From NCBI RefSeq assembly GCF_018324685.1, contig NZ_AP023354.1:5332001-5396000 (forward strand): a stretch of DNA of 64,000 nt, read 5' to 3'. The notes below the pieces were generated by a model that saw only the letters and a program-made list of their open reading frames with translations, searched no databases and was not told the origin of the DNA. Both the position numbers and the translations under genes were made by a program. Of this stretch, positions 7,559 through 50,384 are shown piece after piece. The first letter of the stretch is position 1. Each line of letters opens with the position of its first letter. Origin of the DNA: Actinocatenispora sera. Lineage in GTDB: Bacteria > Actinomycetota > Actinomycetes > Mycobacteriales > Micromonosporaceae.

Positions 7559-7945
7559 ATGCGGCTGAAGGTGGAGCCCAATTCGGCGCTGCCGCCGTAC
7601 GAGCAGTTGCGCCGGCAGGTCGCGCAGCTGGCCGGCAGCGGTGAGCTGCCCGCCGGCACCAGGCTGCCGACGGTGCGCGCGCTCGCCGGCGAGCTGGGGC
7701 TGGCCGCGAACACGGTGGCCCGCGCCTACCGGGAGCTGGAGACCTCGGGCATCGTCGAGACGCGCGGCCGGGGCGGCACCTACGTCGCCGCCGGCGGCAA
7801 CCACACCGCGCAGCGGGCCCGCGAGCTGGCCGACGCCTACGCGGTGCAGACCAGCCGGCTCGGGCTGACCGCCGAGCAGTCCCTGCGGTACGTGCGGGCC
7901 GCGCTCGGATTGATCGACGTGCAGGCCGATCGGCACGCCGAGTGA
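7559..7945 (+). CDS. Short GntR-family regulator (YtrA type)
   Basis: 128 residues from ATG 7559, with an AGGGG ribosome binding site. The N-terminal winged helix (residues about 10-75: [30 protein letters not shown] and NTVARAYRELE) is followed by only about 50 residues, so there is no effector-binding domain. That architecture is the YtrA subfamily, whose members usually sit upstream of ABC transporter genes. Here the next genes are a GNAT enzyme and a membrane protein in the same direction, so the usual partner is missing and the target is unknown. Confidence 0.9.
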   Translation: MRLKVEPNSALPPYEQLRRQVAQLAGSGELPAGTRLPTVRALAGELGLAANTVARAYRELETSGIVETRGRGGTYVAAGGNHTAQRARELADAYAVQTSRLGLTAEQSLRYVRAALGLIDVQADRHAE

Positions 7946-8046
7946 GGCGCGCGGCAGCGGTCCGTGGTTGACCCCGCCAAGGTACCGTCAGCACACAGCC
8001 GCGCCGGCGGCACACCGCGATCCACCGGAAGGAACGGCCTGCCGCC

Positions 8047-8589
8047 ATGACCCTCGTGCACTGGGCGCCGGAGGACCTGCTCGCCCGCATCGACGACGTC
8101 CTCACGGTGTACGCGGAGGCCATGGACTACCCACCGGACCTGGTGGCGGCTCGGCGCGGTTTCGTCGCCGCGCACACCCACTACCGCGGCTTCCGGGCGG
8201 TGGCCAGCCTGGACAACGACGACCGGCTGCTGGGGTTCGGGTACGGCTACCGGTCCGGGACCGGGCAGTGGTGGCACGAGCAGGTCGCCTCGGGGCTGCC
8301 GGCGGAGGCGGCGAAGTTCTGGCTGACGGACTGCTTCGAGCTGGTCGAGCTGCACGTCCGGCCGGACGCGCAGGGCCACGGCCGGGGGTACGCGCAGCTG
8401 ACCGCGCTGCTCGACGGCGCCACCGAGGCGACGGTGCTGCTGTCCACGCCGGAGGCACCGTACGAGTCGTCCCGGGCCTGGCGGCTCTACCGGCGCACCG
8501 GATTCGTCGACGTGCTGCGCCACTTCCGGTTCCCGGGCGACGAACGACCGTTCGCGGTGCTGGGCCGCCGGCTGCCGCTGGAGGTGTGA
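8047..8589 (+). CDS. GNAT family N-acetyltransferase
   Basis: 180 residues from ATG 8047, preceded by GGAAGGAA. The acetyl-CoA loop is visible in FELVELHVRPDAQGHGRGYA (residues about 98-117), a match to Q/RxxGxG/A. A late RAWRLYRRTGFVDVLRHF segment is the usual GNAT strand beta6 to helix region. The substrate is unknown. It lies 101 bp after the GntR gene on the same strand, which may indicate co-transcription. Confidence 0.9.
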   Translation: MTLVHWAPEDLLARIDDVLTVYAEAMDYPPDLVAARRGFVAAHTHYRGFRAVASLDNDDRLLGFGYGYRSGTGQWWHEQVASGLPAEAAKFWLTDCFELVELHVRPDAQGHGRGYAQLTALLDGATEATVLLSTPEAPYESSRAWRLYRRTGFVDVLRHFRFPGDERPFAVLGRRLPLEV

Positions 8590-8694
8590 ATCTGACCGTT
8601 CCCTCCGACCGGAGCCGTCCTCGACGGTAAGAACAGCCCCATGGCAGATGCATGCGGTGGTCGGCGCCGACCCGGAACGGGTGGGTGAGCGGGG

Positions 8695-9558
8695 ATGGGG
8701 CGCTGGTTCCACGACTCGATCGTCGAAACCGGGCGACTGCCGCTGTTCTGCTTCTTCTGCGGTTTCGTGGTCGGATTCCTGTTCATCCGGTTCAGCGTGC
8801 GGATGATCCGGGCCCAGGTGCGGTGGTGGCCGGGCAACGTGACGCCCGGCGGTACGCACATCCACCACGCCGTGTTCGGAGTGGTGTTCATGCTGCTGGG
8901 CGGCGTCATCGGGCTGGCGCTGCCGGACAACCTGGTCGGCTGGCGGGCCGGGTTCGCGGCGCTGTTCGGGATCGGTGCGGCGCTGGTGCTCGACGAGTTC
9001 GCGCTGATCCTGCACCTGGACGACGTGTACTGGGCGAAGGCCGGCCGGACCTCCATCGACGCGGTGTTCGCCGCGATCGCGGTGACCGGCCTGATCCTGT
9101 TGCGGGTCACCCCGATCGGGGTCAGTGACGTCAGCGACGCCCGCGCCCTGTACCCGGGCCTCGGCGGCTGGCTGATCGGCGCCGGCTACACCCTGTTCAA
9201 CCTGGCGCTGGTGGTGATCACCCTGCTCAAGGGCAAGATCTGGACCGGCCTGGTGGGTATCTTCATCCCGCTGCTGACGATCATCGGGGCGATCCGGCTC
9301 AGCCGCCCGGACGCACCGTGGGCCCGCTGGCGGTACGGCAAGCGGCCGCGCAAGCAGCGGCGGGCCCGGCGCCGGGAGGAACGCATCCGCAAGCCGCTGA
9401 TCCGGGCCAAGATCGCGGTCCAGGAGTTCGTCAGCGGCAAGCCCGACGCGGACCCGCCCGAGCCCGAACCGGCCGCCGAACCCGCTGCCGAACCCGCTGC
9501 CGAGGCGGCGCCGCCGCCCGGCGCGGAGGCCGAGCCGGAGCGGCCGCACGACCGCTGA
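8695..9558 (+). CDS. Polytopic membrane protein with charged C-terminal tail, function unknown
   Basis: 287 residues from ATG 8695. About six hydrophobic segments span residues 15-200 (for example LPLFCFFCGFVVGFLFIRF, AVFGVVFMLLGGVIGLALP, FNLALVVITLLKG). HIHHAVFG and ALVLDEFALILHLDDVYW put conserved His, Asp and Glu residues near the membrane face, which might bind a metal. A strongly basic stretch (KRPRKQRRARRREER) follows the last segment, then a Pro/Glu/Ala tail with repeated EPAAEPAAE. The basic segment should be cytoplasmic. I recognise this as a conserved actinobacterial integral membrane protein but know no assigned role. Confidence 0.75.
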   Translation: MGRWFHDSIVETGRLPLFCFFCGFVVGFLFIRFSVRMIRAQVRWWPGNVTPGGTHIHHAVFGVVFMLLGGVIGLALPDNLVGWRAGFAALFGIGAALVLDEFALILHLDDVYWAKAGRTSIDAVFAAIAVTGLILLRVTPIGVSDVSDARALYPGLGGWLIGAGYTLFNLALVVITLLKGKIWTGLVGIFIPLLTIIGAIRLSRPDAPWARWRYGKRPRKQRRARRREERIRKPLIRAKIAVQEFVSGKPDADPPEPEPAAEPAAEPAAEAAPPPGAEAEPERPHDR

Positions 9559-9624
9559 CCCGGCCGAGACCGAGCCGGAGCGGCCACACGACCTGACCCG
9601 GCCGAGGCCGAGCCGGAGCGGACG

Positions 9625-10275
9625 TCAGGTGCCGGCCGGCGCCGCCAGCGCGTCGGCCAGCCCGGCGCCGAGCAGGGCGAAGGCACGGTCGGCGGCCTGC
9701 ACCGCGACCGGGTACCGGTCGTCCGCGCTGGTTCCGGCGACCACCGCCCGGTGGTTGCGCTCGGCGAGGGTCAGCTGCACCGCGTTGATCGCGGCGGCGG
9801 CGATCGCGGCGGTGACCTCCTCGACCCCGGCGGTACGCACCAGCGCATCGGCCAGCGCCCGCTCGCTGCGCGCGGCGTACCGCAGCAGGTGCGCGGCGAG
9901 GCTCGGGGTGCCGTAGATGATCTCGCGCAACCGCACCGAGTCCGGCTCGTCGCACAGCCCGGTGACCGGGTCGCGGGCGTCCAGCAGCGCCCGGTGGTGT
10001 GCGTGCAGCGCGGCCAGCGGCGGCCGGTCGCCGCGCTGCGCCACCACCCGGGCCGCCTCCTCCCGATGGTCGTCGATCCGGTCGAGGACCAGGTCCTCCT
10101 TGGTCGGGAAGTACGCGAACAGGGTCGGCTTGGAGATCTCGGCGGCGGCGGCGATGTCGGCGACCGACACCTTGTCGAAGCCGCGGTCGAGGATCAGCGC
10201 GATCGCGGCGTCCGAGATCGCCTGCCGGGTGCGCCGCTTCTTGCGCGCTCGCAGCCCCTCGGTGTCCGTGTCCAT
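9625..10275 (-). CDS. TetR/AcrR family transcriptional repressor
   Basis: 216 residues from ATG 10275. The N-terminal helix-turn-helix covers residues about 14-60 (TRQAISDAAIALILDRGFDKVSVADIAAAAEISKPTLFAYFPTKEDL). The C-terminal part is a variable, Ala-rich ligand domain. The gene is divergent from an FAD monooxygenase, and a perfect 18-bp palindrome at 10330-10347 lies between them. The natural reading is a repressor of the monooxygenase that responds to its substrate; the ligand is unknown. Confidence 0.93.
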   Translation of the reverse strand: MDTDTEGLRARKKRRTRQAISDAAIALILDRGFDKVSVADIAAAAEISKPTLFAYFPTKEDLVLDRIDDHREEAARVVAQRGDRPPLAALHAHHRALLDARDPVTGLCDEPDSVRLREIIYGTPSLAAHLLRYAARSERALADALVRTAGVEEVTAAIAAAAINAVQLTLAERNHRAVVAGTSADDRYPVAVQAADRAFALLGAGLADALAAPAGT

Positions 10276-43166: not shown

Positions 43167-44036
43167 TCAGCCCGCCGAGGCGTCCTGGCTGCCGTTCTTG
43201 TTCATGTTGGCGCGCAGCTGCTCCAGCCGGGCCACGCCGGCGGTCTGCTCGGCGTCGGCGGCCTGCGTCGAACCGGACTCGACCGCCTTCTGCGCGGGTG
43301 CACTGGTCAGCTGCTCGCCGGCCATGCTGGCCCGGATCTGCTCCAGCCGAGCGTTGCCGGCCATGTCCAGGCTGGACTTCTGCACCTCGAGCATCCGGCC
43401 CTCGACCGAGTTCTGCGCGAGCTCGGCACGGCCCATCGCGTTGGCGTAGCGGCGCTCGATCTTGTCCCGCACCTCGTCCAGCGACGGGGTGTTGCCCGGC
43501 GCGGCGAGGTCGGACATGCTCTGCAGCGAGTTGGCCACCTGCTCCTGCATCTTGGCCTGCTCGAGCTGACTGAGCAGCTTGGTGCGCTCGGCGAGCTTCT
43601 GCTTGAGCATCATCGCGTTGTCGTCGACCGCCTTGCGGGCCTGCTGGGCCGCCGCGATCGACTGGTCGTGCAGCGTCTTCAGGTCTTCCATCGACTGCTC
43701 GGCGGAGACGAGCTGGGTGGCGAGCACCTGCGCGGTCTGCTCGAACTGCTGCGCCTTGGTCTCGTCGCCGTCGGCGCGCGCCTTGTCGGCCATCACCAGT
43801 GCCTGCTTGGCCTGCCCCTGGAACTGCTCGACCTGCGACATCTGCCGGGACAGCTTCATCTCCAGCTGCCGCTGGTTGCCGATGACCGCCGCAGCCTGCT
43901 GCGTGAGCGCCTGGTGCTGGTGCTGCGCGTCTTCGATCGCCTGCTGGATCTGCACCTTCGGATCGGCGTACTCGTCGATCTTGGCGCCGAACAGCGCCAT
44001 CAGGTATCGCCAGCCCTTGACGAACGGGTTCGCCAT
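43167..44036 (-). CDS. pspA: PspA/IM30 envelope-stress protein
   Basis: 289 residues from ATG 44036 ([38 protein letters not shown]). Almost the whole protein is a long coiled coil rich in Gln, Ala and Lys, as expected of ESCRT-III-like PspA. The initial amphipathic helix should bind membranes. The C-terminal 50 residues ([33 protein letters not shown]) contain a short internal repeat. In mycobacteria ClgR activates this operon and PspA restrains ClgR; the same circuit is inferred here. Confidence 0.93.
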
Positions 44037-47737: not shown

Positions 47738-48025
47738 ATGACCGACATTTTGCAGATCGTGGGCGCTGTTCTGGTGCTCGCCGGATTCTTCGCCAGCCAG
47801 ATCGGCGCCGTCGACGCCCGCTCACTGGCCTACCTGATCGTCAACGCGCTCGGCTCCGGAGTGCTCGCCGTGCTCGCACTGCTGGGGCACGAATGGGGCT
47901 TCCTGCTGCTCGAGGGCGTCTGGTGCCTGGTCGCGCTCGCCTCCCTGCTCGGGGTGCTCGGCCGGGCCCGACGGCAGCGCCCGCACCTGCTGCGGGCCGG
48001 ACACCGCTCCGCACCCACCGACTGA
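47738..48025 (+). CDS. Small CBU_0592-type membrane protein
   Basis: 95 residues from ATG 47738. Three hydrophobic helices are visible (LQIVGAVLVLAGFFASQIG, SLAYLIVNALGSGVLAVLALL, GFLLLEGVWCLVALASLLGVL), then a basic tail. SLAYLIVNALGSG and WGFLLLEGVWCLV fit the CBU_0592 family of small membrane proteins of unknown role. It is divergent from rimO and converges with the Mce-associated-like gene. Confidence 0.8.
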   Translation: MTDILQIVGAVLVLAGFFASQIGAVDARSLAYLIVNALGSGVLAVLALLGHEWGFLLLEGVWCLVALASLLGVLGRARRQRPHLLRAGHRSAPTD

Positions 48026-48090: not shown

Positions 48091-48597
48091 TCATTCGATG
48101 TTCAGCGCCGACACCAGCCACCGATCGTGCGGCCGTACCAGCGAGAGTCGGATCCGGTAGTGCACCGTCCTACCCTTCGGTGTGCTGGTGTTGCGCACCG
48201 TGGCATCGGCCGCGACCAGAACGGTTGCCGCCGTCGAACCGGCCTGCGTCGGCGCGACGCCGAGCACCTTCCCGGTCTGTTGCACGTGGTTCTGCACGAT
48301 CCCGCTGCGCAACTGCGTCCGGCGCGCCTGGTACTGCGCGCGGAACTTCCCGGTGCTCAGGTCGAGCATCCGCTTCAGGTCGGCGTCGACGTGATCCGCG
48401 CTCACGTTCAGGAACACCAGCGTCGCGGTACGGGCGGCCTTCGTCGCCGCCGGCACGTACGCGGCGCGGCCGGCGGCGGTGCGCGTCCCGGCGAGGCCCA
48501 CGAGTAGGGCGAGGGTCAGCAACAACGCCAACCCCAGCGCGCCGATCGCGATCAACCAGCCGACCGGGCGCCGGTGGGGCGCGGGCACGGTGGTCAC
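48091..48597 (-). CDS. Single-pass membrane protein with Mce-associated/NTF2-like domain
   Basis: 168 residues from GTG 48597, overlapping the stop of the Hsp70-like gene (GTGA). A single hydrophobic helix (WLIAIGALGLALLLTLALLVGL, residues about 14-35) is followed by an outside domain with the pattern LKRMLDLSTGKFRAQYQARR...VVQQTGKVLGV...TAATVLVAADATVRNTS type seen in Mce-associated proteins. Its C-terminal domain looks like that of the preceding gene, so the two are likely paralogous partners. No Mce operon is in the window. Confidence 0.75.
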   Translation of the reverse strand: MTTVPAPHRRPVGWLIAIGALGLALLLTLALLVGLAGTRTAAGRAAYVPAATKAARTATLVFLNVSADHVDADLKRMLDLSTGKFRAQYQARRTQLRSGIVQNHVQQTGKVLGVAPTQAGSTAATVLVAADATVRNTSTPKGRTVHYRIRLSLVRPHDRWLVSALNIE

Positions 48598-50384
48598 AGC
48601 GACTCCAGCTTCTCGATCCGCCAACCGTCGCCGGTACGGCGCATGACCAGCCGAACCCGGATCTGATCGAGCCTGGCTTCGGTACTGGTGCGGTTGGTGC
48701 TGTGCAGGTCCACGTAGGCCAGCAACGTCACGGTGTCGGTAGCGGACGACACGACGCCGATCTCCTTCGCCTGGGCGGAGACCATCGCGTGCCGCTCGGA
48801 GATGTCCTTGCGCAGCCTCGTCATGGTCTTGGTGTAGTTCGCCCGCATCGACCCGGTGCACCACTTGCGGGCGGCCGCCACGTCGGCGTCGAGCGACCGG
48901 TAGTCGTAGCCGAGTACTGCCGGGACCGCCTTGCTCGCCGTGGCGGTGGCGGCCTGCACCGAAGCGTCCGGCCAGCTGGTGGGCGGCGACGAGGTCAACC
49001 GGTCGACCCCGAGCACCGCGGTCGTGCCGCCGGCCGCCAGCAGCAGCACGGCCAGCACCAGCACGGCCATCAGGTACCCGATCCGGCGTCTGGCCGCCGG
49101 CGGGGCCGCACCCCACGCCGGTGGTTGCGGTGGCAACGCGCCGGCCGGCGGCGGCGGTACCCGCAGCGCACCCTCGGCGACCACCAGCTCCGGTTGCTCC
49201 AACACCACCGGGGCGATGCCGAGCCGCTCGTGCAGCAGGGCGGCGAGCATCGGCACCCGGCTGGCCCCGCCGACCAGGAAGACACCGGTCAGCTGCGGTG
49301 CCGACAGGCCCGCGTCGGCGATCGAGCCAGCCAGCAGTTCGACCACCCGGTCGAGCCGGGGCCGCGCCACCTCTTCGAACTCGCCGCGGGTCAGGTGCAG
49401 CGCCGCTGCACCGGGCACGTGCACCGGCGCCGACGACAGCCGGGACAGCGCCTCCTTCGCGCCGCGCACGTCGTCCCAGAACAACCAGCGGTCCCGGTGG
49501 TCCTCCGGCGAGGACGGCTCGGTCAGCCTCATCCACGGCGCCGCGCCTTCGACGACCGCGGGCCGATCGTCGGAGGCGGCCCCTTCGGTGGACCCGGTCG
49601 GCGGCCCGGACGCCGGCGTGCCGGTCCGGTCGGCCTCGACCGGCGCCAGCGCGTCGGCCTCGACCGGTGCCGGCGCGTCGGCGTCGACCGGTGCCGGCGC
49701 GTCGGCGTCGACCGGTGCCGGCGCGTCGGGCAGCATCGTGCCGATCCGGTCGACCAGCGCGGCATCCAGGTCGAGACCGCCGAGGTCGGCCAGACCGGCC
49801 GTGGCGAGCACCTGGTAACCGCCCGGAGCCAGCCGGACCAGCGCGGCGTCGGTGGTGCCCGCGCCGACGTCGAGCACGGCGAGAACGCCATCCGCGGGCA
49901 GGGTCGACGCGAGCACCGCGGTGAAGTACGCGGCGGCGGCCACCGGCTCCGGCAGCAGCGCGGCGACCGTCAAGCCGGCCCGCGCGGCCGCCGTGGCGAG
50001 CCGGTCGCGGCGGGGCGCGCCCCAGTCGGCCGGATGGGTCAGTACGACCGGCGGCAGTTCGCCGGCCACCCGGACCGCTTCGTCGGCCACCCGGCGCAGC
50101 ACGGCGGCGAGCAACTCGACCACCGGCACCGAAACGCCGAGCAGCACCGTCTCCTCGTCGATGCGGCGCTTGGGATTCGGTTCGTACCGCCCGGGATCGG
50201 CGCGGCCGGCGCGCACCGCGTCGCGACCGACCGAGGGCACGCCGGCGGCGTCGACGAACGCCGCGGACGGCAGCAACTCGGCGCCGTCGAACAGCAGTGG
50301 CCGGGTGTGGCCGTCCGGCCATCGCAACACCGCGACAGTGTTCGAGGTGCCCAGATCCACCCCGAGTAGGAACGCGCCCGCCAT
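48594..50384 (-). CDS. Hsp70-like ATPase fused to a membrane helix and extracytoplasmic domain
   Basis: 596 residues from ATG 50384 with AGGGAGGG. The N-terminal actin-like ATPase has phosphate-1 LGVDLGTSNTVAV (7-19), phosphate-2 LDVGAGTTDAA (171-181) and adenosine motif VFLVGGASRVP (368-378). There is no Hsp70 peptide-binding domain. Instead there is a Pro-rich link, one transmembrane helix (about 436-458) and a 135-residue outer domain resembling Mce-associated proteins. An insertion at 220-253 contains four APAPVDAD repeats. It is co-translated with a second protein of the same outer-domain type. It may couple cytoplasmic ATPase state to the envelope; function is not established. Confidence 0.82.
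   Translation of the reverse strand: MAGAFLLGVDLGTSNTVAVLRWPDGHTRPLLFDGAELLPSAAFVDAAGVPSVGRDAVRAGRADPGRYEPNPKRRIDEETVLLGVSVPVVELLAAVLRRVADEAVRVAGELPPVVLTHPADWGAPRRDRLATAAARAGLTVAALLPEPVAAAAYFTAVLASTLPADGVLAVLDVGAGTTDAALVRLAPGGYQVLATAGLADLGGLDLDAALVDRIGTMLPDAPAPVDADAPAPVDADAPAPVEADALAPVEADRTGTPASGPPTGSTEGAASDDRPAVVEGAAPWMRLTEPSSPEDHRDRWLFWDDVRGAKEALSRLSSAPVHVPGAAALHLTRGEFEEVARPRLDRVVELLAGSIADAGLSAPQLTGVFLVGGASRVPMLAALLHERLGIAPVVLEQPELVVAEGALRVPPPPAGALPPQPPAWGAAPPAARRRIGYLMAVLVLAVLLLAAGGTTAVLGVDRLTSSPPTSWPDASVQAATATASKAVPAVLGYDYRSLDADVAAARKWCTGSMRANYTKTMTRLRKDISERHAMVSAQAKEIGVVSSATDTVTLLAYVDLHSTNRTSTEARLDQIRVRLVMRRTGDGWRIEKLESL
49620..49728. repeat. 24-bp in-frame tandem repeat in the Hsp70-like gene
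   Basis: About four units of TCGACCGGTGCCGGCGCGTC type encode APAPVDAD/APAPVEAD within the ATPase domain. The period and eight-residue coding unit match the P450 repeat in kind but not in sequence. Confidence 0.9.

Follow-up and report, generated by a model that had tools for sequence, protein, structure and literature searches.

A Predicted Orphan Mas Protein Pair of Actinocatenispora with an Hsp70-Type ATPase Domain on Its Type-B Member

Introduction

What would an Hsp70-type ATPase that lacks its peptide-binding domain do at the membrane, joined to a domain on the outer side and encoded together with a second protein carrying the same kind of domain? The question is raised by two overlapping genes at positions 48091–50384, minus strand, of a 64,000-nucleotide stretch of Actinocatenispora sera (Micromonosporaceae; contig NZ_AP023354.1, positions 5,332,001 to 5,396,000), which is called the window in the following. 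A first-pass annotation of the letters alone had described a membrane-tethered, Hsp70-like ATPase with a Mce-associated-like outer domain and a single-pass partner, and had proposed an ATP-driven module for envelope signalling or transport, a proposal that we consider plausible. The analysis reported here leads to a more specific answer. Judged from sequences and structure models, the locus is an orphan pair of Mas (Mam) proteins whose type-B member has acquired, on its cytoplasmic side, an ATPase domain of the Hsp70 type. Its role might be the nucleotide-controlled assembly or regulation of a Mce lipid transporter, to which we give about an even chance.

Results and Discussion

Both open reading frames are present at the coordinates given by the annotation. 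Gene 1 runs from an ATG at 50384 to its stop at 48594 (minus strand, 596 residues) and gene 2, encoding the protein P0002, from a GTG at 48597 to 48091 (minus strand, 168 residues), so that the two overlap by 4 nt, GTGA. The same 4-nt overlap is found in A. rupis (7914–9698 and 9695–10201 of stretch L072), and it is available in A. comari, where gene 1 ends at 1498 and a GTG lies at L010:1501, the gene caller's chosen start of gene 2 lying 50 nt downstream of that GTG. A codon-usage gene caller picks both genes in the window, but it was trained on six window genes, gene 1 included, so its support for gene 1 is not independent; the genes outside the window were also called with it, and their start sites are uncertain. 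That the pair is more than chance follows from the intact frames in two further species together with ratios of nonsynonymous to synonymous change (dN/dS) below 1. A scan of the locus for promoters and terminators gave nothing useful.

The identity of the outer domains carries the assignment. Those of gene 1 (residues 472–596, 48597..48971, minus strand) and gene 2 (residues 45–168, 48094..48465, minus strand) are homologous, with 25 of 97 aligned positions identical (26 %; BLAST expect value, E, of 3e-10), which bears out the expectation of a second single-pass protein with the same outer-domain type. P0002 has no Pfam family and just a chance-level NCBIfam match (E 0.083). Against the mas genes taken from 12 regions with a mce operon, however, P0002 gives E-values of 3e-31 to 3e-21 and the gene-1 outer domain 1e-22 to 7e-18, and relatives of the two occur in 100/354 and 101/354 family genomes, respectively (profile A1 for gene 1). 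In a tree of 31 rows the Mas domains split into two types with a support of 100/100, gene 2 falling into clade A and the gene-1 outer domain into clade B, that is, with the first and the second member, respectively, of the mas pairs of mce operons. The labels A and B were given by whichever query or model scored better, and the grouping was then tested by trees. It is this placement that makes the locus an orphan Mas pair with its MasB fused to an Hsp70 ATPase. The annotation's Mce-associated-like domain was thus of the right type, and is made more precise here: the two belong to types A and B, both already known, of the Mas/Mam domain, and the pair is an orphan of a family that has already been studied in part.

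The structure models agree with this picture. The gene-2 model has a mean predicted local distance difference test (pLDDT) score of 93.7 and the order of four helices followed by four strands, which is also the consensus order described for the Mas domain in the relevant part of PMC1810536. Both proteins match the Mas layout, with the membrane helix 140–180 residues from the C-terminus. The best Foldseek matches of the gene-2 model are DotI/IcmL, TraM, VirB8 and the inter-membrane domains of ARC6/PARC6, with E-values from 3.6e-5, template modelling scores (TM-scores) of up to 0.75 of the target and identities of 7–19 % in the listed rows, which assigns the Mas fold to the NTF2/VirB8 type. The membrane helices are hydropathy or structure-model calls. 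That of gene 2 lies at about residues 13–36 (48490..48561, minus strand; helix 13–44 in the model), with basic residues ahead of it.

Turning to the other half of gene 1, its N-terminal ca 408 residues are an Hsp70 nucleotide-binding domain (NBD; about residues 5–408, 49161..50372, minus strand), matching PF00012 with an E of 9.8e-27, while no NCBIfam model scores above its cut-off. Among solved structures, chains of DnaK/Hsp70 come closest in fold (TM-score 0.82 of the target for chain 6w6e_I), and 95 of the 356 positions aligned to the first 450 residues of the genome's own DnaK are identical. At 16 catalytic positions in DnaK numbering (phosphate-1, K70, E171, phosphate-2, adenosine), whose functional roles we take to be those of DnaK, 14 are the same as in the genome's own DnaK, and this holds alike in the present genome, A. 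comari and A. rupis; D10, K72 and E146 of gene 1 align with D8, K70 and E171 of DnaK. The two that differ are a serine at the T12-like position, common to 6/7 other own NBDs aligned, and an alanine at the G197-like position, common to 3/7. The domain is split by an Ala/Pro/Asp-rich insert at about residues 215–284 (49533..49742, minus strand), which is mostly unstructured (pLDDT below 50 at 230–232, 237–271 and 273–278), holds a 24-bp tandem repeat in 4.2 copies (49629–49729) and is mostly absent from the A. rupis gene 1.

As the annotation had it, gene 1 has no peptide-binding domain: the phmmer match to DnaK stops at residue 406, and what follows is a Pro-rich linker with basic residues at its end (about residues 409–430, 49095..49160, minus strand), one membrane helix (residues 431–451, 49032..49094, minus strand) and the Mas domain. 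The basic residues before the helix suggest that the N-terminus is inside. The structure prediction, based on 86 sequences and with a mean pLDDT of 84.7, gives the same layout of NBD, disordered insert and helix, followed by an outer domain with three helices and four strands; the membrane helix has low to middling confidence, with pLDDT below 50 at 424–434 and 452–471.

It is instructive to compare the pair with its mce-linked relatives. In 12 of the 18 first-fetched stretches there is a mce operon of the order yrbEA-yrbEB-mceA-F, followed by two single-pass genes, the P0002 type before the gene-1 type; some of these operons are cut by the end of a stretch or contig. The genome's own mce operon has eight genes, two with the Pfam family MlaE and six with MlaD and Mce4_CUP1, and it was by their likeness to these eight that mce genes were recognised elsewhere. 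Over all loci read, with identical pairs counted once and first genes with weak scores left untyped (e.g. L149, L304), there are 185 pairs, of which 182 run from A to B, one is labelled B-B (L318) and two, those of A. comari and A. rupis, run from B with an NBD to A; the window's own pair is a third. The order of the fused pair is therefore reversed. A mce gene lies directly upstream, in the stretch read, of 170 of the 182 A-to-B pairs, while 12 are without one, some of them at contig or stretch ends. In each of the four Actinocatenispora genomes one mce operon was found, accompanied by a mas pair of its own; in A. rupis a contig end truncates it. As a side observation, the mce-linked MasB of this genus (L059:10583-11803:+; L068, L069, L070) has about 227–250 residues ahead of its membrane helix.

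We now consider where the fused pair occurs. The survey of its conservation that the annotation had called for found the pair kept, inside one genus only: the intact fusion is present in three of the four Actinocatenispora genomes, namely this one, A. comari (NZ_BOPO01000015.1) and A. rupis (NZ_BOMB01000032.1). In the fourth, G050, no fusion was found, and there are just two Mas matches, both from its mce operon. Among 388 class genomes, with at most 6 candidates scored per genome, a match spanning the end of the NBD, the helix and the outer domain was seen in this genome only, among the best matches listed. In a genome collection, scanned with two short patterns that can miss diverged fusions and may leave out the own genome's records, only A. 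comari and A. rupis span all three parts among the 80 listed of 82 relatives. No paper joining Mce-associated with DnaJ came up in the open-licence literature; we do not claim the first description of the fusion.

The neighbouring ftsK gene, to which the annotation had drawn attention, is indeed there, but as context it looks incidental, because the A. rupis pair is located elsewhere, its two genes having moved together, the next called gene after ftsK in that genome being rimO, and because the ftsK–rimO stretch of G050 is intact without the pair. On these two facts a functional coupling to ftsK was rejected.

The rates of change differ along the pair. The dN/dS is 0.37–0.39 for gene 1 and 0.56–0.77 for gene 2 (three comparisons), and between this genome and A. 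comari or A. rupis it is 0.21–0.27 for the NBD and 0.48–0.68 for the helix and outer domain. As read from these alignments, the ATPase is under constraint and the outer part changes faster. Against A. comari (L071) the pair is in addition an island of divergence, with synonymous divergences (dS) of 0.41 and 0.46 compared to 0.07–0.23 in 11 neighbours on both sides. This island, the patchy presence and the other place in A. rupis together suggest horizontal exchange inside the genus.

Such a pattern could also be expected if the pair were an envelope module that is passed on horizontally and serves in conflict or in adaptation to a niche, directed at phages, competitors or surfaces, in which the fast-evolving outer domains would be the variable part. 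In line with this, Hsp70 proteins without a peptide-binding domain are described for some predicted conflict gene neighbourhoods in the part of PMC7159879 that deals with them. However, dN/dS is below 1 in every comparison made, no effector domain was recognised, and the mce-linked mas genes evolve fast too. The match in PADLOC is short and weak (E 1.4e-4 over 46 residues), and a catalogued defence protein was rejected on this ground. Taken together, we regard a conflict module as quite improbable.

The same observations bear on yet another option, a degenerating orphan duplicate with no function of its own. Absence from one of the four genus genomes and the fast outer domains would fit it, as would the loss of ATPase residues in a separate fusion, that of genome G046, discussed below. 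On the other hand, frames and catalytic residues are intact in three species, the coupled start is seen in two of them and available in the third, and the NBD has the low dN/dS given above. This makes mere decay very improbable, the least probable of the options considered. It can be added that in the outer-domain tree, where 18/110 rows were dropped as near-identical, the fused MasB domains form a separate clade without a settled place, on which ground a recent duplication of the genus's mce-linked MasB was rejected as their origin.

Two further links between MasB and the Hsp70 system were found. The first is a second Hsp70-NBD–MasB fusion in G046 (genus g5 of the same family; L075:8081-9310:+). 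By its Mas domain it falls in with the mce-linked MasB found in the same genome and genus (100/99), and its NBD, on a long branch of unsure place, stands apart from the Actinocatenispora NBDs in a tree from which L001 (DnaK), L014 and L037 were left out. For these reasons the fusion is apparently independent, so that an Hsp70-type NBD and a MasB were apparently joined twice; from the lineage of its Mas domain, the G046 gene was also rejected as an orthologue. We note in passing that the G046 fusion may be a pseudo-ATPase.

The second link is found in family f29, where the mce-operon MasB starts with a J-like domain in 14 of the 21 genomes read (L144:1842-2681:-, L146:2666-3586:+, L147, L148, L149, L152, L158, L103, L301, L302, L304, L306, L307 and L317). 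The loci were picked partly for long open frames, 33 f29 genomes having matches, and 14/21 is hence not the fraction of a random sample. Thirteen of the 14 domains score above the Pfam DnaJ cut-off, the exception being L306, whose gene call starts inside the domain, and in 11/14 cases a MasA and a mce gene were recognised upstream. These cases suggest the same direction as the fusion in the window, without being proof of it, since fusions are widespread for NBDs and J domains alike. The Mas genes of a set of 40 loci gave no match to the NBD profile.

Two observations on other MasB N-termini may be mentioned here. The combination of J-like domain, membrane helix and ARC6-type outer fold in f29 recalls the plastid division protein ARC6, which has a J-like domain according to the portion of PMC3196505 concerned with it. 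Three mce-operon MasB proteins (L151:2662-3414:+, L308:2529-3299:- and L311:3101-3907:-) carry an N-terminal zinc-ribbon-like paired-cysteine motif with Pfam scores below cut-off.

With these results at hand, a mechanism can be outlined for a regulator of Mce transport. MasA and MasB would form a heterodimer outside the membrane, which would touch or act on a Mce lipid-import complex. The cytoplasmic domain would bind and hydrolyse ATP and thereby change the state of the single-pass helices, which in turn would help with assembling, stabilising or gating the Mce complex, a role reported for mycobacterial orphan Mam proteins. Since the peptide-binding domain is missing, gene 1 should not bind peptides in the manner of a chaperone. 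Several publications bear on this outline. Casali and Riley (2007, PMC1810536), in the section on these genes, found 58 of 66 Mas genes to be paired and proposed heterodimers; Omam proteins and LucA are described as stabilising Mce transporters in the pertinent part of PMC9947336; and a figure-related part of PMC9882608 has orphaned Mce-associated membrane proteins marked in a pull-down plot of MCE-related proteins.

It is important to state what weighs against a role in Mce transport. No mce genes are found by Pfam among the ten nearest window genes, nor any beside the fused pair in the three genomes, stretches L071 and L072 included, and the outer-domain tree places the fused MasB apart from the mce-linked MasB of the same genus. 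G050 has a mce operon and no fused pair, so the module is dispensable there. As for the related cases, the G046 fusion has lost K, E and most of phosphate-2, its NBD lies below the Pfam cut-off and it has no MasA beside it. The HPD motif is absent from all 14 of the f29 J-like domains, which are therefore degenerate ones for which stimulation of DnaK cannot be assumed. In the part of PMC10517005 on M. smegmatis YrbE1B, none of Mam1A–D, OmamA/B and LucA co-purified with it. Finally, the genome has eight further non-DnaK Hsp70-like genes (L293–L300), and in six of them the NBD is followed by a predicted membrane helix and by C-terminal parts of various kinds, one with a PQQ_2 beta-propeller match below cut-off; with so many membrane-bound relatives, the Mas fusion may say little about Mce.

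This last point leads to the main competing explanation, in which the locus is a general transmembrane sensor. Gene 1 would belong to an actinobacterial set of proteins that join an Hsp70-type ATPase and a membrane helix to a C-terminal part that varies, and that are built like the receptor Ser/Thr kinases; the Mas pair would be the ligand-binding outer part signalling inward, with no Mce transporter taking part. The membrane-bound Hsp70-like genes just mentioned are what one would expect of it, related NBDs occur in 125/150 family genomes, and the distance to mce genes and the NTF2/VirB8-type fold also speak for it. What it does not account for is the partner, which is of the cognate type, A with B, as in the 182 other pairs with their predominantly mce-linked position. 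We therefore judge a general sensor rather unlikely, though to be taken seriously.

A broader version of Mce regulation can also be formulated, which joins the f29 and Actinocatenispora cases. The cytoplasmic tails of MasB proteins would serve for docking or switching and would thereby link Mce lipid transporters with the Hsp70 ATPase cycle, in f29 via the J-like domain of the mce operon and in Actinocatenispora via the built-in ATPase, which lacks a peptide-binding domain and would act on the Mas heterodimer as a transmembrane switch powered by ATP and not as a chaperone. This generalisation is speculative, and we hold it to be unlikely as it stands. Even so, the MasB–ATPase fusion, apparently made twice, and the J-like MasB suggest that nucleotide-driven conformational work on the cytoplasmic face of the membrane may be passed on to the Mas pair. 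For the role of Mas/Mam and Omam proteins in Mce lipid import, the fusion would give a handle, though one that is narrow in distribution.

For completeness, the surroundings of the pair are described. The ten nearest window genes match, by Pfam, PspA, HTH, CinA, CDP-alcohol phosphatidyltransferase, radical SAM/TRAM, FtsK, DUF2784, SnoaL and TetR, with one gene without a match. No type IV secretion genes are among them by Pfam, ftsK being the sole gene of a secretion or plastid-division type. A small gene (47738–48025, plus strand) for a membrane protein, predicted to have three helices and unmatched in Pfam, is convergent with the pair; it is at the same place in A. comari (G070) and in G050, and not called in A. 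rupis (G012). About 4 kb from the pair there is a PspA/IM30 gene of the envelope-stress type (43167–44036, minus strand; PF04012, E 1.8e-39), which keeps its place next to rimO in genomes that lack the pair at this site as well.

Comparison with Known Systems

The outer domains have their best model matches in the periplasmic domains of DotI and VirB8 and the inter-membrane domain of ARC6/PARC6; the low sequence identities and the absence of type IV secretion genes nearby set the pair apart from these. Gene 1 has the NBD fold and catalytic residues in common with DnaK/Hsp70, from which it differs in being membrane-bound and without the peptide-binding domain. ATPase residues are kept in all three Actinocatenispora genes and lost in the separate G046 fusion only, so that the loss in homologues which the annotation had named as refuting its proposal applies to this separate gene alone. 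Like the mycobacterial OmamA and OmamB, genes 1 and 2 encode Mas proteins away from mce operons; the comparison is by type. OmamA and OmamB are not known to have an ATPase domain.

The closest relationship is to the Mas/Mam proteins of mce operons, as described in the sections of PMC1810536 devoted to them. The outer domain is homologous in sequence, tree and predicted fold, there is a single helix with the C-terminus predicted outside, and A and B stand in tandem. Mas genes are usually downstream of the mce operon (43/66 in that source), whereas the fused pair is away from mce genes, has the order B then A, and carries an Hsp70-type ATPase on its MasB. One member of the family in the same source, MSMEG0879, has its Mas domain preceded by a Ser/Thr kinase domain. 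Like gene 1 it would thus place an ATP-using enzymatic domain on the cytoplasmic side, a protein kinase instead of an Hsp70-type ATPase, and it provides a precedent for an enzymatic cytoplasmic domain on a Mas protein.

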